Below, one piece after another: positions 14,875 through 33,715 of a DNA stretch of 64,000 nt. Position 1 is the stretch's first letter. Every line of letters begins with the position of its first letter. Under the pieces are notes generated by a model. That model worked only from the letters and a program-made list of their open reading frames with translations, had not been told where the DNA came from and did not search any database. A program made the translations under genes and the position numbers. Origin of the DNA: Thiomonas intermedia (GTDB lineage Bacteria > Pseudomonadota > Gammaproteobacteria > Burkholderiales > Burkholderiaceae_C); assembly GCF_002028405.1 (NCBI RefSeq), contig NZ_CP020046.1, forward strand, positions 930,001 to 994,000. The letters are read 5' to 3'.

Positions 14875-15393
14875 TCAGCGCATGCCGCCGTGCATGTCCT
14901 TGCCCGGCATGGAGGCGTCACTGGCGATCTTGTCCCGCGGCTCCACCTTGAGTTTCACCTCCATGTGCCCGCCTGCCGCGAACTTGATCGTCACAGGTAC
15001 CGTCTCGCCCACTTTCAACGGCGCTTTCAGGTCCATGAACATAAGGTGATAGCCCGAGCCCGGCTGCATGCGCAAGGTCTTGCCAGCAGGCACCGGAATG
15101 GTTTCCACTTCACGCATGCGCATCACGTTGTTCTCCATGCTCATGGTGTGCAGTTCCACATGACCGCAGACGGGCGATGAAGCGGCAACGATCTTGTCAT
15201 CGGTCTTGCCGTGGTTGACGAGGGTGAGAAAGCCACCGCCGTTGCGGGCGCCGGGTATCGACGGCAGCGCCTGGGCCTGCGTCACCGCGATCGCGCCGGC
15301 GCCTTGGGCCAGCGCGGCCGACGCGCTGGTCAGCATCAACACAGCGGGAATCATCGCCAGGGCCTGTCGGCGGGTGAACACGCGGATCGTCAT
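14875..15393 (-). CDS. Periplasmic copper chaperone, PCu(A)C family
   Basis: PCu(A)C proteins carry Cu(I) in the periplasm, mainly for cytochrome oxidase CuA or CuB assembly. The 172-residue precursor has an N-terminal signal with a twin-arginine look (FTRRQALAMIPAVLML, cleavage after ALA-QG near residue 29). The mature part has the copper site H(M)x10Mx21HxM: His82 with Met84, Met93, then His116 and Met118 in GYHLMFMDLKAPLKVGE. The C-terminal tail is Met/His-rich (MPGKDMHGGM), as in many copper proteins. The start at 15393 has AGGAG about nine bases upstream. It diverges from msrA and lies near the DsbG-like and bufferin genes. Confidence 0.9.
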   Translation of the reverse strand: MTIRVFTRRQALAMIPAVLMLTSASAALAQGAGAIAVTQAQALPSIPGARNGGGFLTLVNHGKTDDKIVAASSPVCGHVELHTMSMENNVMRMREVETIPVPAGKTLRMQPGSGYHLMFMDLKAPLKVGETVPVTIKFAAGGHMEVKLKVEPRDKIASDASMPGKDMHGGMR

Positions 15394-15533
15394 CAAGGTT
15401 CTCCTAGAAATCAATACGGCACGGACGCCGCTGCCGATTGTCGGCGAAAATCGCCACAGAAAAGGCGTGCATTTTGTCAGCCTCCGACAATGCGCGGACC
15501 GCGGCAAATTGCCGCACTCACGACTCCTGCCCC

Positions 15534-16097
15534 ATGTCAACCTTCGCCCTGCCCTCTTTGCCTCAGCGCATCACCCTCGCGGGAGGATGCTTCTGGTGCC
15601 TCGACGCCGCCTACCGTCCCTTGCGCGGCGTGTTGCGCGTGGAGTGCGGCTACAGCAACGGCACCACGCTGCGTCCGAGCTACCGGGAGGTCTGCACCGG
15701 CCAGACCGGGCATGCCGAGGTCGTCCGCCTGGACTTCGATCCCGACGTGCTCAATCTGGACACGGTACTGGACGTGTTCTTCGCCATGCACGACCCCACC
15801 ACCCTGAACCGCCAGGGCAACGACATCGGCACGCAATACCGCTCGGGCATCTACACCCACGACGGCGCCCAGCTCACGGCCGTGCGCGCCTATGTGCAGC
15901 GCCTGCGCGACCAGGCGCTGTTCGCCGATCCCATCGTGACCGAGATCGCGCCGGAATCCAACTACAGCCCTGCCGAATCGGAACATCAGGACTATTTCGC
16001 CCACCATCCCTACCAGGGGTATTGCGCCGCCGTCATCGCACCCAAGGTGGACAAGCTGCGTCGAAAGTACGCCGCGCTGCTGCGCGAGTCGGCATGA
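15534..16097 (+). CDS. msrA: Peptide methionine-S-sulfoxide reductase
   Basis: MsrA reduces the S-epimer of methionine sulfoxide in oxidised proteins. The 187-residue protein has the invariant GGCFWC (catalytic Cys19) followed by GVLRVECGYSNG, the substrate block TGHAEVVRLDFDP, FFAMHDPTTLNRQGNDIGTQYRS, and the recycling region HHPYQGYC. It has no signal peptide, so it is cytoplasmic. The start is the ATG at 15534; the longer open frame from 15438 lacks a plausible start. It is followed 19 bp downstream by the HPP-CBS gene, which may be co-transcribed. Confidence 0.95.
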   Translation: MSTFALPSLPQRITLAGGCFWCLDAAYRPLRGVLRVECGYSNGTTLRPSYREVCTGQTGHAEVVRLDFDPDVLNLDTVLDVFFAMHDPTTLNRQGNDIGTQYRSGIYTHDGAQLTAVRAYVQRLRDQALFADPIVTEIAPESNYSPAESEHQDYFAHHPYQGYCAAVIAPKVDKLRRKYAALLRESA

Positions 16098-16116
16098 TCG
16101 CGCAGGGAATCGCACC

Positions 16117-17202
16117 TTGAGCGGCGCTCAAACCGCGGGCAGCCCCCGCGTCGGCTGGGTCGAGTGGCTGCGCGTTTCGGTTGGCGCGGTGCTCGGCGTT
16201 GCCGCCGTCGGGCTGCTGAGCCGCTTCGTCGAAACGGGCACGGGCTGGACGCAGGCCGCCTGGCTGGTCGCCCCCATCGGGGCCAGTGCCGTCATCGTGT
16301 TTGCCCTGCCCAGCAGTCCGCTGGGACGGCCGTGGTCGGTCATAGGCGGCAACACGCTGGGTACGCTGATGGGCATCGTCAGCGCGGCCTGGATCGGACC
16401 GACCTGGATCGCGGCCGGGGTGGCGGTGGGCGCGGCCATTGCCCTGATGCTGCAGGCCCGCTGCCTTCATCCGCCGGGCGGCGCGGCCGCTTTGCTGGCG
16501 GTGCTGACGCACACCACCGACTGGCGCTTCGCCCTCATGCCCGTGGCGCTCAATTCAGCCTTGCTCGTGGCCGCGGCATGGCTCTGGCATGCCGCCACGC
16601 GGCGTCCTCACCCCGCACCGTCCGCCGGGGCCGAGGCCCTGTTGCCCAATACCGACGATCTGTCCAGCGCCATCGACGCGGCGGTGACACGCTACGGCGA
16701 AGTGCTCGACATCGATCGGGCGACGCTGCGCAACCTGCTTGAAGAAGCGCAGACCCAGGCCTACCGCCAGCGCCTGGACGCCGTGAGCTGCGCCGACATC
16801 ATGCAGCGCGACGTGCAGGTCGCCCGGCCCGATGAAAGCGTGGCCGAGGCCCAGGACCGTCTGACCGAACACGGCATCAAGGCGCTGCCGGTGATCGACC
16901 GGCATCGACAGGTCGTCGGCATTGTGACCGCCGCCGACCTGCGTCTGAACCCCGAGGGCGCCCCCAGCGCCATGCGAGAGTCTTCCGCGCCCGTGGCCGC
17001 ACGCATGACGCGGCAGGTGCGCGTCGTCTCGCAAACGCGGCATCTCTCCGAACTGATCCCGCTGTTCGCCAGCAGCGGCCATCACCATCTGCCGGTCATC
17101 GACGCGTCGGCGCGGCTCACCGGCATGATCACGCAAAGCGACGTGATGCGGGCGCTGCATCGCACCCCGGTGACCCTGCTTACTTCGCCTCCTTCAGCAT
17201 GA
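16117..17202 (+). CDS. HPP-family membrane protein fused to two CBS domains
   Basis: The N-terminal half (residues about 20-160) is an HPP-family membrane domain with four or so hydrophobic helices and the defining CLHPPGGAAALLAV motif. The C-terminal half has two CBS domains: CADIMQRDVQVARPDESVAE to GIVTAADLRL, and AARMTRQVRVVSQTRHLSEL to GMITQSDVMRAL. Some plant and cyanobacterial HPP proteins move nitrite; CBS pairs usually bind adenosyl ligands and gate the attached domain. The only fitting start is a TTG at 16117, with AGGGA nine bases upstream. Its stop region overlaps the 3' end of the DsbG-like gene by 23 bp. Transported substrate unknown. Confidence 0.82.
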   Translation: MSGAQTAGSPRVGWVEWLRVSVGAVLGVAAVGLLSRFVETGTGWTQAAWLVAPIGASAVIVFALPSSPLGRPWSVIGGNTLGTLMGIVSAAWIGPTWIAAGVAVGAAIALMLQARCLHPPGGAAALLAVLTHTTDWRFALMPVALNSALLVAAAWLWHAATRRPHPAPSAGAEALLPNTDDLSSAIDAAVTRYGEVLDIDRATLRNLLEEAQTQAYRQRLDAVSCADIMQRDVQVARPDESVAEAQDRLTEHGIKALPVIDRHRQVVGIVTAADLRLNPEGAPSAMRESSAPVAARMTRQVRVVSQTRHLSELIPLFASSGHHHLPVIDASARLTGMITQSDVMRALHRTPVTLLTSPPSA

Positions 17203-17770
17203 TCTGGATCTGCGCATCCGACGGCACGCCGATCATCATGTCGGCGCGGCCATCCGTCTTGCGCCACACGACCACCGGCACGCCGAACAGCTTCTGGCCG
17301 TTGTAGATCGCCAGATTGGCAGCCAGCTCCGCCTGAACCTTGGCCGTGATGGAAGCCGCGGGCTCGATACCTCCGCCCGGCTGGCCGTTGGCCGCGAAGT
17401 CGTAGTCGTTCTCGTTTTTCTGGAACGCCTGCAAGGGATCGGGCGACTGCAGGATGGCTGCCGCCTTGGGCAGGCTGCTTGCGGTGAGCATGCCCAGCGG
17501 AATCCAGCGGAACTGCACATCGGTCTTGCCCACCAGGCCGCGCAGTTTTTTATACAGCTCATGGCAGAACGGGCAGTTCGGATCGAAAAAAATGTACAGC
17601 GCACGCTCACCCTTGCCTTCGGCGATGTAGGTGGCCTTGCCGATTTGTGCCAGCACGCCTTCAGCCTGCCGGGCGCTCTGCGCCTGGGCTGCGGGCCAGG
17701 CGGCGAGGCATGCGACCGCGCCGAGGCCGCGCAGAACCTGACGACGATGCAACGACGGATGTGAAGCCAT
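17180..17770 (-). CDS. DsbG/DsbC-like periplasmic thiol-disulfide protein (CPFC)
   Basis: The 196-residue precursor begins with a signal peptide containing a twin-arginine-like stretch (HRRQVLRGLGAVA, cleavage near AQA-QS at residue 30). The thioredoxin fold has the active site FFDPNCPFCHEL (Cys66, Cys69) and a cis-Pro loop GVPVVVWR, as in DsbG/DsbC disulfide isomerase-reductases. The N-terminal dimerisation domain of E. coli DsbG is largely missing, so it is a short form. The start at 17770 is supported by GGGAGA upstream; the frame open to 18028 is not. Two paralogues lie 2.5-4 kb away. The partner that reduces it (DsbD-like) is not in the window. Confidence 0.85.
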   Translation of the reverse strand: MASHPSLHRRQVLRGLGAVACLAAWPAAQAQSARQAEGVLAQIGKATYIAEGKGERALYIFFDPNCPFCHELYKKLRGLVGKTDVQFRWIPLGMLTASSLPKAAAILQSPDPLQAFQKNENDYDFAANGQPGGGIEPAASITAKVQAELAANLAIYNGQKLFGVPVVVWRKTDGRADMMIGVPSDAQIQIMLKEAK

Positions 17771-17848
17771 GCGGGTCTCCCTGTTGTGGAAATGGATCAA
17801 CGCTCTCAATAATGCCGCAGAACACGCCTTTCGGCACTCCCGACCACG

Positions 17849-18196
17849 ATGACCCTGACCCTGCCTGAGACCTGCGCCGCCTGGTCGCAGCCCGACTTCG
17901 GCACTGTGCTGCTGACCGAATTGCGGCAGACCGGCGCCCTGCCCGGGCTGCTGCAACAAGGCTTGAGCCGAGGCAGCCACGCCTTGACCGACGACGTCGC
18001 CCTGCTGGTGTTGCAGCGCAGAGAGCAAGGCGATGCCCTCCAGGTGAAAGCCGGTCTGAGCTATTTCAGCATCATCCCCGGCTGCGCCTGCGAGGCCGAT
18101 CCGACCCCGATGAGCGAGCTGCCCGAGTATGTCGAACTGGGCATCGCCATCCGGCGGTCAGACGCCGTCGCCACGCTGGTCCTGCTCGACGATTGA
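17849..18196 (+). CDS. Conserved hypothetical protein, 115 residues
   Basis: I do not recognise a named domain. The protein is soluble and mildly acidic, with QQGLSRGSHALTDDVALLVL in the middle and PGCACEADPTPMSELPEYVEL holding a Cys-Ala-Cys pair that could bind metal or form a disulfide. Similar small proteins occur in Burkholderiales, from memory and without a search. It diverges from the CPFC DsbG-like gene with a 78-bp gap and converges with pdxH; the gap to pdxH contains a hairpin. GC content and codon use look like those of its neighbours, which supports a real gene. The start is the ATG at 17849, without a clear ribosome binding site. Confidence 0.6.
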   Translation: MTLTLPETCAAWSQPDFGTVLLTELRQTGALPGLLQQGLSRGSHALTDDVALLVLQRREQGDALQVKAGLSYFSIIPGCACEADPTPMSELPEYVELGIAIRRSDAVATLVLLDD

Positions 18197-18237
18197 CGCG
18201 CCGAGCCTCCGCCAGACGACGGGCTGCGCCACGCCCC

Positions 18238-18270
18238 TGAGAAAACGCCGGGCCGCCCCAAGTTTTCTCA
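18238..18270. repeat. Hairpin with GCCGGGCCGCCCCAA loop (copy 1)
   Basis: TGAGAAAAC and GTTTTCTCA form a perfect 9-bp stem around the 15-nt loop GCCGGGCCGCCCCAA. The same loop occurs at 28892-28906 within an entirely different 9-bp stem. It lies between two convergent genes, so it could end transcription in both directions, but no T-run follows. Confidence 0.7.
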
Positions 18271-18303
18271 TCCCCCGCGGGCCTGACGCGAACCAGCGCA
18301 CTC

Positions 18304-18942
18304 TCAGGGCGCCAAACGCCTGACCCCCCAGCGCCCTTCGCCCTGCAGCGTGTAGGCCAGGCGGTCGTGCAGACGCGAGGGCCGCCCCTGCCAGAACTCC
18401 CAGGCATCGGGCAGCAGACGATAGCCTCCCCAGTGCGGCGGGCGGGGCGGGTTCACGCCATAGCGCAGACCGAATTCGGCAGCGCGCTTGAGCAAAGTGC
18501 CGCGACCCTCGATCGGCGCACTCTGCGGTGAAGCCCAGGCGCCGAGGCGCGAGGCCAGCGGACGGCTGGCGAAGTAGGCGTCGGACTCGTCGGCATCGAC
18601 CTTTTCCACCCGGCCCTCGATGCGCACCACACGCTCGAGTTCCACCCAGTGGAACTGCAGCGCCGCGAAGGGATGTTCCGCAAGCTCCCGGCCCTTGCGG
18701 CTGGCATAGTTGGTGTACCAGACGATGCCCCGCGTATCGACCTGCTTGATCAGCACCACGCGGGTGGACGGGCGCCCGCCTTCGCCCACCGTGGCCAGGG
18801 TCATGGCATTGGGCTCGGGCACCTGGGCGTCCATCGCCTGTTGCAGCCAGTGCTCGAACTGCCTGAAGGGATCGGCGTCGGCATGCGCCTCGTCGAGTTC
18901 GGCCCTCGAATAATCCTTGCGCAAATCGGTCAGTGATTTCAT
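18304..18942 (-). CDS. pdxH: Pyridoxine/pyridoxamine 5'-phosphate oxidase
   Basis: PdxH uses FMN and oxygen to make pyridoxal 5'-phosphate, the last step of vitamin B6 synthesis and salvage. The 212-residue protein starts [16 protein letters not shown] and has [39 protein letters not shown] (FMN binding), [20 protein letters not shown], and the C-terminal signature [26 protein letters not shown]. Length and motifs are typical. The gene diverges from the SLAC1-type channel gene with a CRP-like palindrome in between. The nearby glyA product and other PLP enzymes depend on its product, but there is no operon link. Confidence 0.96.
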
Positions 18943-20134: not shown

Positions 20135-20247
20135 GCATCAGGAGGTACAAGCCACCGGGAGGCCTTGGGGTATCTGCGGTTTACACGCGCCGCGGGCCTG
20201 CCTATCGTGAAGGGTGAAAGGCGAAAGTGCCCCCCAAGGAGGATGTT

Positions 20248-20922
20248 GTGCTGCCCGCAAAGGTCTTCGCCCCTGAGACATCACAAGCCCAGCGCCGCTG
20301 TCGGCGGCGACTGCTGCGATGGAGCCTGGTGGCGCCGCTGGCCGGTACGGCATGGCTGTGGCAGACGATCGCCGTTCAGGCCGCCCGGGCGGCGGGCGTG
20401 GAGGCCGCAGCCGACTGGGCGGCCGATCCCGAAGCGGCGCGCGCGGCCAGACTGCTCGGGGCCATCGGTTCGGCCCATTGGGTGCAGGAGGGCACGGGGC
20501 CGCGCATCGTCTACATCTTCTTCGACCCGAATTGCCCGTTTTCGCACAAGCTCTATCTGGCCACGCGCAGCGAGGTCGGCAAGGACGGACTGCAACTGCG
20601 ATGGATCCCGGTGGGGCAGCTCGAAGCCAGCAGTACGGGCAAGGCGGCGGCCATTCTCGCCGCGGCGGATCCGCTGGCCGCCTTCCATAAAAACGAGAAC
20701 GACTGGGATTTCGGCGATAGCCCGGCCGGCGGCATCCGTCCGCTGGCGCATCCAGCCCCCCGCATCACGGCGCAGCTCCAGGCCAATGCCGCTTTGATGC
20801 GCCAAGCCGACCTGCACACCTTTCCGGTGATGCTGTATCGCGGGGCGAAGGGCCGCGCCCGGCTCTTCGTCGGGCTGCTGCCGGCCGATGCGCTGGCGAC
20901 TGTGCTGGGCAGCGCGGGCTGA
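20248..20922 (+). CDS. DsbG-like periplasmic protein with monothiol CPFS site
   Basis: The start is fixed by a perfect AAGGAGG at 20236-20242, five bases before the GTG at 20248. The 224-residue protein has an arginine-rich signal anchor (RRCRRRLLRWSLVAPLAG, cleavage or membrane anchor near residue 45) and a DsbG-type thioredoxin fold. Its active site reads FFDPNCPFSHKL: Cys96 is present, but the second cysteine is Ser99 (codon TCG). There is no other cysteine after the signal region. A cis-Pro loop (HTFPVMLYR) is intact. A single thiol cannot form an intramolecular disulfide, so a holdase, isomerase or mixed-disulfide role is more likely than reduction. It converges with the CPYC paralogue. 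Confidence 0.82.
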   Translation: MLPAKVFAPETSQAQRRCRRRLLRWSLVAPLAGTAWLWQTIAVQAARAAGVEAAADWAADPEAARAARLLGAIGSAHWVQEGTGPRIVYIFFDPNCPFSHKLYLATRSEVGKDGLQLRWIPVGQLEASSTGKAAAILAAADPLAAFHKNENDWDFGDSPAGGIRPLAHPAPRITAQLQANAALMRQADLHTFPVMLYRGAKGRARLFVGLLPADALATVLGSAG

Positions 20923-20963
20923 GCGCAACGTCCAGCCCATCGCGCCCTGCGTCCTGCCCACCC

Positions 20964-21557
20964 TTACTTCACGCTCGCCAGAATGTCCTTCAACTGCTGC
21001 GCATCGGGCGGGCCGACGACCAGCATGGCGTCGCCCTGCTTGTCGCGGTAAAGCATGGTGGGGACGCCGGGCGACTTGGTGGCATCGAGCAGCGCATTGT
21101 TGGCATTGAGGATGGCACTGGTGGCTGGCAGGACCTTGGTCGCGGGCGCGATGCCTCCGCCCTGCCCCGTGGGCCCCTTGCCATAGCCCGCTTCGTTGTC
21201 GTGGAAGGCCTTGAGGCGGTCACTGGCCTGCAGAATGGCCGCGCCCTTGGTCACGCTGCTGGGCGTGAGCACGGCCACAGGCACCCATCGCACTTCCAGG
21301 CCGTCCTTGCCGATGCGGGGACGCAGATCGGTGTAGAGCTGATGGCAGTACGGGCAGTTGGCGTCGAAGAAGATGTAGATCACGCGGGGACCATGTCCCT
21401 CGGTGATGAGGGTGGCCTTGCCCATCTCGCCCAGCACCTTGACGGCATTCGGATTCTGCATCTGCTGGGCTGAAGCCGTCGGCGCCAGACCGATGACACT
21501 GGCGCTCAGGGCGGCCGCGAAGAACGTGCGCAAGGCTGCGCGGCGGGTGGGATGCAT
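20964..21557 (-). CDS. DsbG/DsbC-like periplasmic thiol-disulfide protein (CPYC)
   Basis: The 197-residue precursor has a signal peptide with twin arginines (PTRRAALRTFFAAALSA, cleavage after ASA at residue 30). The active site is FFDANCPYCHQL (Cys68, Cys71), with the cis-Pro loop GVPTMLYRDKQG. It is a paralogue of the proteins at 17180 and 20248 and shares blocks such as the MGKATLITEGHGPRVIYIF region. GAGGAG lies about ten bases before the ATG. It follows the doxX gene by 61 bp on the same strand and so may be the last gene of the bufferin operon. A role in keeping bufferin or copper-site cysteines reduced is my inference. Confidence 0.85.
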   Translation of the reverse strand: MHPTRRAALRTFFAAALSASVIGLAPTASAQQMQNPNAVKVLGEMGKATLITEGHGPRVIYIFFDANCPYCHQLYTDLRPRIGKDGLEVRWVPVAVLTPSSVTKGAAILQASDRLKAFHDNEAGYGKGPTGQGGGIAPATKVLPATSAILNANNALLDATKSPGVPTMLYRDKQGDAMLVVGPPDAQQLKDILASVK

Positions 21558-21618
21558 GCGGGGTCTCCTCGTTGCAATGGGGTTGCGAGCCAGTATGCCG
21601 CAAACACGCCGTTCGCGC

Positions 21619-22110
21619 TTACGACGCCCGACGCTTCATCCACCCATGGTCCACCGACCACTTGCCCGGCCCCCACAGCACCACGACCAGCAACAGAATG
21701 CCCCAGATGACGTGAAACAGAATGGCCGGCGCCTGCAACGCGTGCAGATACGACAGCAGAGCCACGGCGTTCACCACAAACAAACCCAGTGCGCCGAAGC
21801 GGCCAAACAGGCCCAGTGCCAGCAGGGGCGGCAGCAACACCTCGCCCGCGGTGCCCAGAACCGCCGCGACGTGCGGCGGCAGAAGGGCGACGCGGAACTC
21901 GTTTTCATACAGCCACAGGGTGGAGCCCCAGTCGCGCAGACTTTGCAGCCCGGAGGCGAAGAACACATAGGCCACATACAGCCGGGCCGCCAGCAGGGCC
22001 GGGGCTTGCAGGCTGTCGAGACCTCGCCTCAGCGCGCACCAGCCACGAGCGATGAAACCGGTGGGCCGCAACACCGGGGCAGACGCGGTCAGGGGGTGGG
22101 AGGAATGCAT
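21619..22110 (-). CDS. DoxX-family membrane protein of the bufferin operon
   Basis: This 163-residue protein has four hydrophobic segments and the DoxX pattern RLYVAYVFFASGLQSLRDW in helix 1 and VLGTAGEVLLPPLLALGLFGRF in helix 2. DoxX proteins are quinone-associated inner-membrane proteins; the homologue in the Cupriavidus gig cluster is called GigT, and DoxX genes are a regular part of bufferin operons. Their exact task there is not settled. AGGAG lies seven bases before the ATG. It starts 42 bp after the bufC stop and is followed 61 bp later by the CPYC DsbG-like gene. Confidence 0.85.
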   Translation of the reverse strand: MHSSHPLTASAPVLRPTGFIARGWCALRRGLDSLQAPALLAARLYVAYVFFASGLQSLRDWGSTLWLYENEFRVALLPPHVAAVLGTAGEVLLPPLLALGLFGRFGALGLFVVNAVALLSYLHALQAPAILFHVIWGILLLVVVLWGPGKWSVDHGWMKRRAS

Positions 22111-22152
22111 GGTGATCTCCTTGAAAGGGGAAGTGCGAACGGGTGGAAGCTT

Positions 22153-22980
22153 TCAGGCCAGGCTCTCCACCCGGTCCAGCCAGCCTTGGGCCATGGCCTC
22201 GTGCAACCAGGCGCCGACATCGAATCCATCGGCCGCAGCGTCGAGGGCGAGGTCCAGCCGCATCGGCCGCTGCAAGGCCGTCAACCATGCGGCTTCGGCC
22301 TCTGAAGCCGCGCGCACGCGGGGCTGGAAGCCGTCGCGCCAGACCCACGCCGTCTCGCCCCCCGCACGCACGACCTGCCGCAGCGCAGCGCCATCGGGGG
22401 TCGGGTGCTGATGCAGCCGCCACAAGGACACGAGCGGCCATGACGCCTTGATCAGACACGATCCTGGCGCGAGATGCAGACGCAATGTGGCCGGATCGTC
22501 ATGGGCGAGCCGCTGCAGATCGTCGGCGCCGAAGGCCGCGGCAGGCGCGTCGAGCGCGCGCCACAGCGCCCAGTCGAGCCGGGCGCTATCCACCAGCCAG
22601 GGCCAGTCGTGCAGGTCGGGCTGTGCCTGCACGCAGGTGGCGAAGTCTTCGCCGAGCCGCGCCAGATCGCCGCACTTCGGCGGCCAGCCGCGCCAGTAAC
22701 GCGCGGCCACGGCGTCGAAGGCCGACTCGCCCAGCATGGCCAGAAGGGTGGGAAACTGCACCCGCAATGCCGCGCTGCCATTGGCCAGACCGTTGCCGCG
22801 ATAGGCCGCAAGGCCTGATCGCCAACGTGCTCCGGTCTGGCGCAGGCCCAGCGCTTCATCAGCTTCGCGCGGCGGGTGCGACACCCACAGGGCATGCAGC
22901 AAGGCCTGCTGTCTGCGCGCCTCGCCAGACACCACGCACCCGCCAAAAGGCATTGGCGCACCAGGCGCGGACTGCTTCAT
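22153..22980 (-). CDS. bufC: Bufferin maturation partner, DUF2063 (HvfC/BufC family)
   Basis: The 275-residue protein has the DUF2063 N-terminal domain: RRQQALLHALWVS, SGLAAYRGNGLANGSAALRVQ and FPTLLAMLGESAFDAVAARYW over roughly residues 20-100. A divergent C-terminal half follows. In bufferin clusters BufC binds the precursor and works with the MNIO enzyme BufB; this is known from related systems, and homologues were named GigB in the gig cluster. The start at 22980 overlaps the bufB stop as ATGA, showing tight coupling; the alternative ATG at 22989 lies within bufB. Few residues of the C-terminal half can be interpreted. Confidence 0.85.
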   Translation of the reverse strand: MKQSAPGAPMPFGGCVVSGEARRQQALLHALWVSHPPREADEALGLRQTGARWRSGLAAYRGNGLANGSAALRVQFPTLLAMLGESAFDAVAARYWRGWPPKCGDLARLGEDFATCVQAQPDLHDWPWLVDSARLDWALWRALDAPAAAFGADDLQRLAHDDPATLRLHLAPGSCLIKASWPLVSLWRLHQHPTPDGAALRQVVRAGGETAWVWRDGFQPRVRAASEAEAAWLTALQRPMRLDLALDAAADGFDVGAWLHEAMAQGWLDRVESLA

Positions 22981-23888
22981 GGCAGACATGCCATCACCTC
23001 GCTCGCATGCGTGCCCTGCCCGTTTTGCAGGTACTCGTCCAGCAGGGCCTGCGCCTGCCCCGCTTCGCCCAGCAGCACATCGAGCGTGGGCAGATCGGTG
23101 TCCCATTCGATCAGCGTCGGCACCGCGCCGAAGCGGCGCAAGGCGTGGGCATAGGCCAGCCATACCGGCAGCGAGACCACGCTGGCATGGTCGTCGACGA
23201 CCAGTCCGTTCTGCACACTGTGGCCCGCGAGATGGATTTCGCCCACCAACGCAGCAGGCGCTGCAGCGGCCAGCTCATCCAGCCAGTCGGCCACGCGCTG
23301 CACGGGGTCTGGCTCGCCGGCATTTTTGGCATTGACCATGAGGTTGTTCACATCGAGCAATAGGCCGCAGCCCGTGCGCCGCCCGAGTTCGGCAAAGAAT
23401 TCGGGCTCGGTGAAGTCGGCTTCGGCGAAGTCGAGATAGCTGCTCAGGTTCTCGACCAGGATGGGACGGCGCAGACGCTCCTGCACCTGCTGCACATGGC
23501 GCACGAAGATGTCGAGCGAACCACGGGTGAAGGCCACCGGCAGCAGATCATTGGCATGCACCACACCGCGCGAGGCCCAGGGCGCGCGGGCGAAGCAGGC
23601 ATGATCGGAAACGCGTACCGGTGCGATGCGCTCGACCAGATCGGCCAGACGATCGAGATGCGTCGCATCGAGCCCGCAGGCCGAACCCAGCGCCAGACCC
23701 ACGCCGTGCAGGCTCACGGCATGATCCTGCCGCACCCGCTGCAATACCTGCGCCGCGGCGTCATGGGGGTTGAAGAAATTCTCGGAGTGCACTTCGACGA
23801 AGCCCAGGCGGGGCTGCATCGCGTGAAACGCGCTGTAGTGGGGCTGGCGCAGGCCGATGCCCGCGCGAGCCGTGTCAGGGAGGATCAT
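22977..23888 (-). CDS. bufB: Multinuclear non-haem iron oxidase (MNIO, DUF692), bufferin-modifying enzyme
   Basis: DUF692 enzymes use two or three iron ions to oxidise cysteines of a ribosomal peptide. In bufferins this yields thiooxazole groups that bind copper. The 303-residue TIM-barrel protein keeps the expected metal ligands: His17 (GLRQPHY), Glu32 and Glu36 (FVEVHSENFF), His61 (SLHGVGLALGS), His96 (SDHACF), Glu146 (LVENLSSYL), Asp179 and Asn181 (LLLDVNNLMVNA), Glu217, His219 and His223 (GEIHLAGH), and Asp263/Asp265 (EWDTDLP). GGAG lies nine bases before the ATG at 23888; the frame open to 23942 is not needed. It sits 69 bp after bufA. Confidence 0.92.
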   Translation of the reverse strand: MILPDTARAGIGLRQPHYSAFHAMQPRLGFVEVHSENFFNPHDAAAQVLQRVRQDHAVSLHGVGLALGSACGLDATHLDRLADLVERIAPVRVSDHACFARAPWASRGVVHANDLLPVAFTRGSLDIFVRHVQQVQERLRRPILVENLSSYLDFAEADFTEPEFFAELGRRTGCGLLLDVNNLMVNAKNAGEPDPVQRVADWLDELAAAAPAALVGEIHLAGHSVQNGLVVDDHASVVSLPVWLAYAHALRRFGAVPTLIEWDTDLPTLDVLLGEAGQAQALLDEYLQNGQGTHASEVMACLP

Positions 23889-23957
23889 GTCTTGTCTCCT
23901 GGGCACAGCGGCGGCGATGGTCGACGAGCAGAGCGTCGGCAAAGCCGCCGCGTGAAC

Positions 23958-24287
23958 TCACATGCTCATCTTCTTGGCCATTTTTTCTTCGAACATCTTG
24001 ACCTCGGCGGGGTTCTTCAACAGCGCCTTGGCCTGTTCCATGTTCAGGCCTCCCATCTCCTTGCAGGTGCCCGTGGGCTTGACCGCGAAGTCGCCCGGGT
24101 CATAGCTGGTGGTGCTCGTGCCCTTGCACGAATGCAGTCCGGAAATGCCCGCGCAATCGTTCTGACCGGCCTTGGCGATGCCGAAGCATTTGTCCATGCT
24201 CTGAGCCTGCGCTGCAGGCGCGAGCGACAGCACACCCATGGCCAGCAGGGAAGCGGCGGCGGTCTGGAGGACTTGGCGTTTGTTCAT
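23958..24287 (-). CDS. bufA: Bufferin precursor peptide (DUF2282), secreted
   Basis: This 109-residue precursor has a Sec-type signal peptide (MNKRQVLQTAAASLLAMG, cleavage after AQA at residue 28). The core has the four conserved cysteines of the family: Cys34 (DKCFGIAKAGQNDC), Cys45, Cys54 (HSCKG) and Cys75 (PTGTC). Homologues are GigP of Cupriavidus and BufA of Caulobacter; the modified peptide is exported to the periplasm and sequesters copper. After the usual KEMGG end the protein continues about 29 residues with five Met and six Lys, a tail I do not expect in this family. AGGAG lies eight bases before the ATG. It is the first gene of the operon and diverges from the sigma factor gene. 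Confidence 0.92.
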   Translation of the reverse strand: MNKRQVLQTAAASLLAMGVLSLAPAAQAQSMDKCFGIAKAGQNDCAGISGLHSCKGTSTTSYDPGDFAVKPTGTCKEMGGLNMEQAKALLKNPAEVKMFEEKMAKKMSM

Positions 24288-24526
24288 GGTGAATCTCCTG
24301 AAAGTGTGGAAGGCGACGGCAGACGGTCTGCCTGCTCAAACCCGGTCAACAAGAAATCCGGGCTGCTTCTTGGTCGTCGTGCGGCGGCGTTCCTGACAGC
24401 CCAAATCCTGGTGGAAACCCGCATGCCGTGCGCCAGCGCAGGGCCGAAGGCTGTGGAAGAATGCGCGGGCTTCCATGAACCGGCGCCACCGGCCCCGGTC
24501 ACCGTATCGTTCTCACGTCCCCCGCC
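24288..24526. other. Divergent control region between bufA and the ECF sigma gene
   Basis: These 239 bp must contain the promoters of the bufferin operon and of the sigma factor. I looked for a shared ECF -35/-10 pair. GAACC at 24477 (plus) and TGTTGAC followed by CGTC on the minus strand near 24315-24350 are weak candidates with unusual spacing. No pair is convincing. Confidence 0.4.
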
Positions 24527-25102
24527 ATGTCCGATTCCCTGCAGCTTGCCGATTTGCACGGACGCCTCGAAGCCCTGCGCCCCACGCTGCTGCGCCTGGC
24601 GCAACTGCAATTGCGCAATGCGGCCTGGGCCGAAGATGCGGTCTCGGAGACTTTGCTGGCGGCCCTCGAAGGCGCGTCGCGCTTTGCCGGCCAGTCGCAG
24701 CTCAAGACCTGGGTGGTGGGCATCCTCAAGCACAAGGTGCTCGACCAACTCCGCCAGCGTCAGCGCGAGGTGGCGTATGACACCGATGACGACGGCGAGG
24801 TGATCGACGATCTGGTGTTCGCCCCCGACGGTCATTTCCGCACGACGCCACAGACCTGGCAGAGCCCGTCGGACACGCTACAGCAGCGCCAGTTCTTCGA
24901 GGTGCTCGAGGCCTGCATGGATGCGCTGCCCGGCCAGATCGGCCGCGTGTTCCTGATGCGCGAATGGCTGGAGCTCGACACCGACGCCATCTGTCAGGAA
25001 TTGCGCCTCTCCTCGACCAATGTCTGGACGATGCTGCACCGTGCCCGCATGCGTCTGCGCGAATGCCTGCAACTCAACTGGTTCGGGAACCCCGCCAAGT
25101 GA
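24527..25102 (+). CDS. ECF-type RNA polymerase sigma factor (RpoQ-like)
   Basis: This 191-residue protein has sigma region 2 (AEDAVSETLLAALEGASRF, then SQLKTWVVGILKHKVLDQLR near residues 45-85) and region 4 (ALPGQIGRVFLMREWLELDT through CQELRLSSTNVWTMLHRARMRL near 130-180). Region 3 is absent, as in ECF factors. It directs RNA polymerase to a small regulon; in Cupriavidus the ECF factor RpoQ controls the gig genes, which are homologous to the operon divergent from it here. The anti-sigma gene overlaps its stop by GTGA. I infer that the pair controls the bufferin operon in response to copper or thiol stress. Confidence 0.9.
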   Translation: MSDSLQLADLHGRLEALRPTLLRLAQLQLRNAAWAEDAVSETLLAALEGASRFAGQSQLKTWVVGILKHKVLDQLRQRQREVAYDTDDDGEVIDDLVFAPDGHFRTTPQTWQSPSDTLQQRQFFEVLEACMDALPGQIGRVFLMREWLELDTDAICQELRLSSTNVWTMLHRARMRLRECLQLNWFGNPAK

Positions 25103-25305
25103 ACTACCCCTTCCGTCGCACCTGCCGAGAAGTCGCCGCGCTCATCCTGGCGCGGGAAGATCGCGCGCTCGAATTCCCCGAGCGTCTGGCCGTGCGCATC
25201 CATTTTCTGGTCTGCAAGGCCTGTCCCCGTTTCGAGCAGGAGGTGCAGACCATGCGCGCCGCGCTGAACGGCTGGAAAAACTATCGCAACAACGGCGACG
25301 AGTGA
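25099..25305 (+). CDS. Small zinc-finger anti-sigma factor
   Basis: The start is the GTG at 25099, which overlaps the sigma stop codon in GTGA; the longer open frame lies within the sigma gene. The 68-residue protein has the zinc-binding anti-sigma pattern Cys9 ... His35-x3-Cys39-x2-Cys42 (FRRTCREVAAL and RIHFLVCKACPRF). It has no membrane segment, so it is a soluble anti-sigma factor likely to release its partner when the zinc thiols are oxidised or attacked by metal. Translation coupling with the sigma gene should keep the two in balance. Confidence 0.85.
   Translation: MNYPFRRTCREVAALILAREDRALEFPERLAVRIHFLVCKACPRFEQEVQTMRAALNGWKNYRNNGDE

Positions 25306-28963: not shown

Positions 28964-33715
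<4,752 letters not shown>

Follow-up and report, generated by a model that had tools for sequence, protein, structure and literature searches.

What does a bufferin operon gain from a thiol-disulfide gene at its end, and what controls the two? The stretch analyzed here (the window, 64,000 nucleotides of a Thiomonas intermedia genome of 3.34 Mb in 2 contigs, 100% complete by its record) carries the bufferin genes bufABC-doxX, a gene for a DsbG-like protein (dsbG3) behind them, and a divergent pair of genes for an extracytoplasmic function (ECF) sigma factor and its anti-sigma factor. Sequence comparison established the gene content, a promoter motif, a codon-selected copy of that motif inside the sigma gene and the recurrent linkage of a DsbG subfamily to such operons. 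The explanation we favor, with a probability of roughly 0.7, is that this is a usual bufferin operon whose sigma factor would have an internal damping promoter, that the regulon appears to have been extended to thiol and methionine repair in relatives, and that DsbG3 is a separate paralogue. In general terms, it is reasonably probable that bufferin-type ECF genes carry their own target promoter in their helix-turn-helix codons, kept by synonymous selection across many genera and serving their own inhibitor, and that Thiomonas and a related genus (g33) share a joint regulon of copper sequestration and thiol/methionine repair, including a DsbG subfamily and, as a possible MNIO substrate, a group of NPCAP-repeat peptides. 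The internal site and the readable regulon are the most interesting outcome. The former, if true, would be a compact negative-feedback device; the latter would link copper-binding peptides with the repair of cysteine and methionine in the periplasm, and points to an exported Cys-repeat peptide family without a Pfam or NCBIfam match as far as it was scanned.

By its gene content the locus is a Buf1 bufferin operon built as is usual in Burkholderiaceae, with an ECF pair alongside. Gene order, strands, the gaps from bufA to dsbG3 (69, -4, 42 and 61 bp, with bufB and bufC overlapping in ATGA) and the divergent sigma/anti-sigma arrangement, all described in an earlier note on this DNA, were confirmed from the sequence and by Pfam, in which every family assignment in the operon and the sigma pair reached its cut-off (Table 1). 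BufA joins its DUF2282 domain to a hydrophobic signal-like N terminus (KD19 maximum 1.61) and four cysteines, and the MNIO maturase and its DUF2063 partner lie in the same gene run; against the NCBIfam model MNIO_BufB, BufB scored 299.8 bits, 10 below the cut-off of 310. The sigma factor has regions 2 and 4 and passed two NCBIfam models (284.7 bits, cut-off 255, and 236.2 bits, cut-off 162.2). The anti-sigma gene overlaps it by 4 bp and encodes HFLVCKAC, an H-x3-C-x2-C motif (NCBIfam antisigmaE 61.7 bits, cut-off 50), which makes this a zinc-type pair with predicted zinc binding, and no membrane span was found in its 68 residues (KD19 maximum 0.73).

We compared this layout with 60 bufferin loci, one per other Burkholderiaceae genus among the matches listed, taken from an MNIO search that matched 173 of 299 genomes. 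The bufABC-doxX core was present in 46 of the 60 and a divergent ECF/anti-sigma pair in 34, while a profile search found a DsbG-family match in none (0/60), so that core and sigma pair count as standard for the family and DsbG does not. The profile matched 92 of the 94 loci from which it had been built, which shows that it works and is no independent control. The divergent ECF pair is therefore not special; the thiol-disulfide protein was rightly placed outside the standard set. The main text of an MNIO survey (PMC12452194) contains neither 'Dsb' nor 'disulfide' nor 'thioredoxin', and in the parts of the open PMC literature covered by our search the term DsbG was not met.

Two described systems, the SigF-NrsF operon of Caulobacter and gigPABT of Cupriavidus metallidurans, resemble the window in having the bufABC-doxX core with a linked ECF pair. 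The four-gene core and the linked pair bear out the match to gigPABT made in the earlier note; its assumption of control by RpoQ fares less well. In the passages of PMC10304878 that concern it, the authors state that there is no evidence for RpoQ starting gig transcription, though they consider such control likely, so that it is assumed and not demonstrated; the rpoQ-rsqA region is RpoD-dependent, the anti-sigma factor RsqA is predicted to be membrane-bound, and gig responds to copper (PMC10304878). The 68-residue zf-HC2 protein of the window, which lacks a membrane span, does not fit the membrane-bound type of anti-sigma factor of these systems, which for RsqA is a prediction, and the gig analogy is a loose one.

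The motif TGTMAGGA-N14/15-CGAC was obtained by gapped-word enrichment in 84 bufA upstream regions. Its words occurred in 16-18 of the 84, while the highest counts in three shuffled sets were 7, 5 and 7; the commonest gapped words (up to 44 regions) were set aside because they derived from bufA coding starts. An exact site was found in 38 of the 84 regions and a site with at most one mismatch in 52, as compared to 1 of 420 letter-shuffled regions. The site in the window starts 111 nt before the bufA start, and the exact N14 motif had only two matches in the whole genome, this one and one inside the sigma gene, relative to none for the reversed pattern. In the related genus, a search of 28 genomes with the form ending in CGACNAA gave 89 sites against 0 in the reversed control, and across 13 Thiomonas genomes the form without NAA gave 26 against 2. 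The motif, which differs from the GTAACC-N16-CGAA of the known Buf1 systems, is the likely promoter of the bufferin ECF sigma factor, and its sharpness (89 sites in 28 genomes, none in the control) suggests that the regulon of zf-HC2-type bufferin ECF factors can be read from sequence. In the window scan, with a threshold of 11/12 or better, one further near match with one mismatch was seen at 32482(+).

The match inside the sigma gene spans the codons for CQELRLSST (24992-25017), its first base lying 107 nt ahead of the anti-sigma start. Its codons were examined in 50 distinct codon strings that fit a regular expression, in 59 aligned ECF genes, and in resampling sets of 27 (Thiomonas and the related genus) and 34 genes (other genera). 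Cys156 was encoded by TGT in 56 of the 59, whereas TGC dominates in the anti-sigma genes and in bufA, bufB and bufC; the position ahead of Thr was S, P, A or T, yet its codon was NCG in at least 56 of the 59. The two most codon-biased of 189 columns were the -35 and -10 codons of the internal site. The exact site was kept in 26 of the 27 and in 19 of the 34 genes, while 300 runs of codon resampling gave means of 0.90 (maximum 5) and 0.75 (maximum 4), respectively, and it was absent from all five related ECF genes that have no bufferin genes around them. Among the 60 loci from the other Burkholderiaceae genera, exact sites fell inside the ECF gene (19), before bufA (19) or elsewhere (4), and none lay within 300 bp before an ECF gene. 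Since synonymous codons keep the site, the simplest reading is that it is an ECF-dependent promoter of the anti-sigma gene and would provide negative feedback.

This layout, a sigma-type site inside the sigma gene ahead of the anti-sigma gene, is that of sigH-rshA in Corynebacterium glutamicum, in which the anti-sigma gene is transcribed from a sigma-dependent promoter within the sigma gene and the operon from housekeeping promoters (PMC3489674). It was established there by experiment and here by sequence, and the two differ in phylum and motif, in the position of the site in region-4 helix-turn-helix codons and in the synonymous-codon selection across genera. Caulobacter sigF differs in having an upstream SigF promoter (PMC3511200), whereas here the exact site is inside the sigma gene and none was found upstream. 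For the present group, such an internal promoter of the anti-sigma gene may already have been published elsewhere.

We sorted 83 distinct sites of the 89 in the related genus by position. They lay inside the ECF gene (21) or before doxX (18), bufA (9), NPCAP peptides (8), ArsS-type radical SAM genes (6), a 65-aa peptide (4), DsrE-like genes (3), dsbG (3), msrB (3) and a propeller protein (1), with 7 left unassigned. Those of dsbG are placed 86 nt before the start codon in each case (G318, G319 and G326). In Thiomonas, a site occurred 53 nt before the start of dsbD in 8 of the 13 genomes (4 exact, 3 with one mismatch and 1 with two). The predicted regulon of the relatives, with DsbG, DsbD, MsrB and ArsS, is wider than that of the known Buf1 systems. 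The NPCAP-repeat peptides behind exact sites in related genomes are exported-looking and 76-87 aa long. Two were scanned without a Pfam match, one of them also without an NCBIfam match. In some genomes such a peptide stands directly upstream of bufA, and in G327 and G317 it is followed by an apparent MNIO gene start and then dsbG. They are a possible new MNIO-type precursor of a ribosomally synthesized and post-translationally modified peptide. NPCAA peptides near distant DsbG genes (L086, L090) lie about 3 kb away and were treated as weak.

Thiooxazole formation on cysteines is known from bufferins. By analogy with relatives, copper or oxidant stress would make the zinc-type anti-sigma factor lose its zinc and free the ECF factor, which would start bufABC-doxX from TGTCAGGA-N14-CGAC, and BufB/BufC would convert the BufA cysteines to thiooxazoles. 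From the second promoter copy in the region-4 helix-turn-helix codons, extra anti-sigma factor would be made and the response damped. In Thiomonas and the related genus the regulon would have gained periplasmic thiol and methionine repair through DsbG4, a DsbG subfamily treated below, and in some genomes through dsbD and msrB. YedY is a methionine-sulfoxide repair protein. SigF of Caulobacter also affects a YedY sulfite-oxidase-like gene, and the SigF set responds to chromium and cadmium (PMC3511200).

Several observations weigh against this explanation. It rests on sequence, and because the sequences are related the counts overstate independence. Of the bufA upstream regions, 46 of 84 have no exact site and 32 none within one mismatch, and the internal site in its exact form is missing in 15 of the 34 genes of other genera and in 1 of the 27 of Thiomonas and the related genus. 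When a single mismatch is tolerated, this genome has no more matches to the motif than to the reversed control (12 vs 17). The dsbD site is absent from the window genome and from G104, G106, G107 and G108, which counts against the extended regulon in this genome; G100, G101 and G105 have the dsbD site and no sigma match (E 1e-25). We read the sites in these three as relics of a lost module, though another sigma factor may instead use them.

The linkage of DsbG to bufferin genes was followed in 13 Thiomonas genomes and 28 of the related genus. An MNIO was present in 8 of the 13 and a bufferin-type one, by score and frame length, in 7. In four of these 7 (the window genome, G104, G109 and G103) dsbG lies at most 100 bp behind doxX; the distance is about 4.4 kb in G102 and about 10 kb in G049, and no DsbG match was found in G107. 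In the related genus, a bufferin MNIO occurred in 22 of the 28 genomes and DsbG-family matches in all 28 (E 1e-6). There, dsbG was directly behind the buf genes in 9 of the 22 and not in the other 13: eight of the nine are at most 20 bp from bufC or overlap it (one a fused frame of bufB-bufC length), and that of G032 is about 540 bp behind doxX. Adjacency is thus not confined to this strain, a case for which the earlier note had allowed.

Most of this linkage belongs to a paralogue other than DsbG3. In a tree of 85 DsbG rows (at least 140 residues, 12 distant loci as outgroups, linkage labels that let the final base of the -35 box vary), a DsbG4 clade of 24 rows had a support of 99/98, and 20 of its rows lie behind buf genes or an ECF site, 15 by label and 5 by reading. 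The latter carried the label 'other' and were judged linked on manual inspection: G313 follows a bufB-type frame whose length would also accommodate bufC; in G309, G331 and G327 the gene belongs to the same run of genes behind a site; and G102 is behind a dsbG with a one-mismatch site. As for the remaining rows, G310 and G332 stand beside ECF/anti-sigma genes, G317 is at a contig start and G100 is unlinked. In G105 (L178:8332-9174) an ECF site and a fused bufA start precede dsbG4, like the scar of a lost bufferin operon. The DsbG3 clade, to which the window's gene belongs, has 13 rows, of which 3 lie behind buf genes, 2 behind dsbG4 (G105, G332), 1 at a contig start (G331) and 7 behind neither. 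The gene is present where neither an MNIO nor this sigma factor was found, in G100 and G106 (at least 98% complete) and in G105 and G108 (87-88%). The order in G109 is bufABC-doxX-dsbG4-dsbG3, and we infer an ancestor in which the two dsbG genes followed doxX, with a loss of dsbG4 in the window strain.

The window holds genes for three DsbG-like paralogues in a span of about 4.4 kb; further matches in the genome are weak. Two of the three had not been mentioned before, DsbG1 (match at 17195-17725(-)) and DsbG2 (match at 20395-20913(+)). In the DsbG2 clade the second active-site cysteine is replaced by serine (CPFS or CPYS) in 9 of 9 rows, making it a conserved one-cysteine DsbG-like protein. 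DsbG3, whose closest named relatives are in Thiomonas records, has CPYC and a signal-like N terminus. It covers positions 89-249 of the 251 in the NCBIfam DsbG model, so that the protein lacks the N-terminal dimerization domain, and scored 115.1 bits, 9 under the cut-off of 124; in a PDB sequence search, DsbG entries ranked first (E 1.5e-13). With a DsbG-type catalytic domain present, the dimerization domain absent and the score under the cut-off, we call it DsbG-like. It shares the catalytic thioredoxin domain and CPYC with E. coli DsbG and differs from it in the missing domain and in being one of three paralogues in one cluster, one of them with CPFS. ScsC isomerases of copper tolerance tie a thioredoxin fold to copper and are trimeric and Cu(I)-binding (PMC8900818, PMC5524982); for DsbG3, the sequence search puts DsbG entries first.

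Is DsbG3, then, a dedicated factor, co-transcribed with the operon, that matures bufferin or as a chaperone keeps the BufA cysteines reduced? The same-strand gap of 61 bp in the window and 63 bp in G104, the other DsbG genes behind bufC or doxX in the related genus and the gene of window type behind a site-bearing dsbG4 in G105 are in line with such a role, and a scan of 20850-22250 found no terminator in the gap and only one terminator-like site, at chance level, inside doxX. We nevertheless consider it unlikely, as just 3 of the 13 clade members follow buf genes and the gene is retained in genomes lacking both an MNIO and a match to this sigma factor. The gap contains a conserved block around TGCGGCATACT, which is shared by 9 of the 12 DsbG3 upstream regions that were aligned, some of them from genomes lacking buf genes, and is missing in G109, G105 and G332, the three in which dsbG4 precedes dsbG3; no sigma-70 consensus promoter was detected in the same scan. 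The window scan (at least 11/12) showed no ECF site before dsbG1-3, the SLAC1-family gene, pdxH, msrA or a PCu(A)C-like gene. MNIO modification is thought to precede export, so that a DsbG with a signal-like N terminus would act after the modification step.

That the association is one of neighborhood only, with an ECF-buf module inserted into or lost from an existing DsbG cluster and no functional tie, is also doubtful. It would account for G108, where EamA directly precedes DsbG3 with no ECF or buf gene between, for the lack of DsbG at the bufferin loci of the 60 other genera and for the 13 bufferin-bearing genomes of the related genus with no DsbG directly behind. It fits poorly with a separate DsbG subfamily tied to buf genes or the ECF site in 20 of 24 rows and in several arrangements, with the sites at a constant 86 nt before dsbG, and with those at a constant 53-nt offset before dsbD. 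Very unlikely, finally, is that the internal site is a by-product of protein conservation or codon preference or has a non-transcriptional role: the protein conserves C-[QK]-E and T-N, which supplies part of the motif for free, but the TGT and NCG codons are held against neighboring usage and a varying residue, resampling yields about one gene per set, and the five non-bufferin relatives lack the site.

In E. coli, DsbG shields single cysteines against sulfenylation. We picture DsbG as a reductase of periplasmic cysteines that would be fed by DsbD, as in E. coli, where DsbD passes electrons to DsbG and keeps it reduced (PMC13095759). Under the favored explanation DsbG3 would be a broader-use paralogue with its own upstream element, and read-through may reach it as well; it probably repairs periplasmic cysteines by reduction rather than serving bufferin synthesis as such. 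The suggestion that a thiol protein extends the bufferin system thus finds support in the regulon of relatives, with DsbG3 the less likely carrier, and was probably attached to the wrong paralogue; the observation behind it stands, its interpretation in part.

Table 1. Features of the window, with NPCAP peptides of other loci in the last row
Feature	Position	Strand	Description
DsbG1	17180..17920 (start approximate)	-	CPFC, behind pdxH
DsbG2	20227..20922	+	CPFS, behind SLAC1-family gene
dsbG3 (DsbG-like)	20964..21557	-	Pfam Thioredoxin_2 43.2 bits, DSBA 28.2 bits
Gap before dsbG3	21558..21618	-	Block around TGCGGCATACT conserved; may hold a separate dsbG3 promoter
doxX	21619..22110	-	Pfam DoxX 50.2 bits
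bufC	22153..22980	-	DUF2063 MNIO partner; Pfam DUF2063 50.2 bits
bufB	22977..23888	-	MNIO maturase; Pfam MbnB_TglH_ChrH 287 bits
bufA	23958..24287	-	Buf1 (DUF2282) bufferin precursor, 109 aa; Pfam DUF2282 70.6 bits
ECF promoter candidate of bufA	24369..24398	-	TGTCAGGA-N14-CGACCAAG; motif discovery and scans
ECF sigma gene	24527..25102	+	PRK12520/TIGR02943 type; Pfam Sigma70_r2 48.6 bits, Sigma70_r4_2 44.7 bits
Internal ECF-type site	24992..25021	+	TGTCAGGA-N14-CGACCAAT in region-4 codons (CQELRLSSTN); candidate anti-sigma promoter
Anti-sigma gene	25099..25305	+	68 aa; Pfam zf-HC2 23.3 bits, cut-off 22.2
NPCAP peptides	L249:7093-7356; L251:6837-7067; L254:1204-1461	-; -; +	Also in L284, L352, L361, L368

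Beside the DsbG genes of the window, at 14875-18942, are genes named by eye as a PCu(A)C-like copper chaperone, msrA, an HPP-CBS protein and pdxH, a block that for the most part persists in Thiomonas genomes lacking bufferin genes (e.g. G106, G108). Related sigma pairs were also seen away from bufferin genes. In G310, G325 and G315 (L269, L282, L273) an ECF/anti-sigma pair is divergent from pdxH-dsbG1, with no bufferin genes in the stretch examined; dsbG4 stands beside that pdxH-dsbG1 in G310, and the ECF copy of G315 has no internal site. A Burkholderia glumae plasmid (L402) has a related ECF/zf-HC2 pair beside thioredoxin-family, CcdA-family and arsS genes, indicating that thiol redox genes and ArsS occur next to this sigma family without bufferin genes. 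In-frame TGA codons in some MNIO matches probably reflect overrun of the terminal stop, with most matches ending at query residues 290-298; one such match (G323) ends at residue 170, unlike most. A second MNIO of the window's genome, outside the window (G000:C1:1730464-1731255), lies in a long open frame of 666 aa, and similarly long frames were found in G101, G102 and G104.

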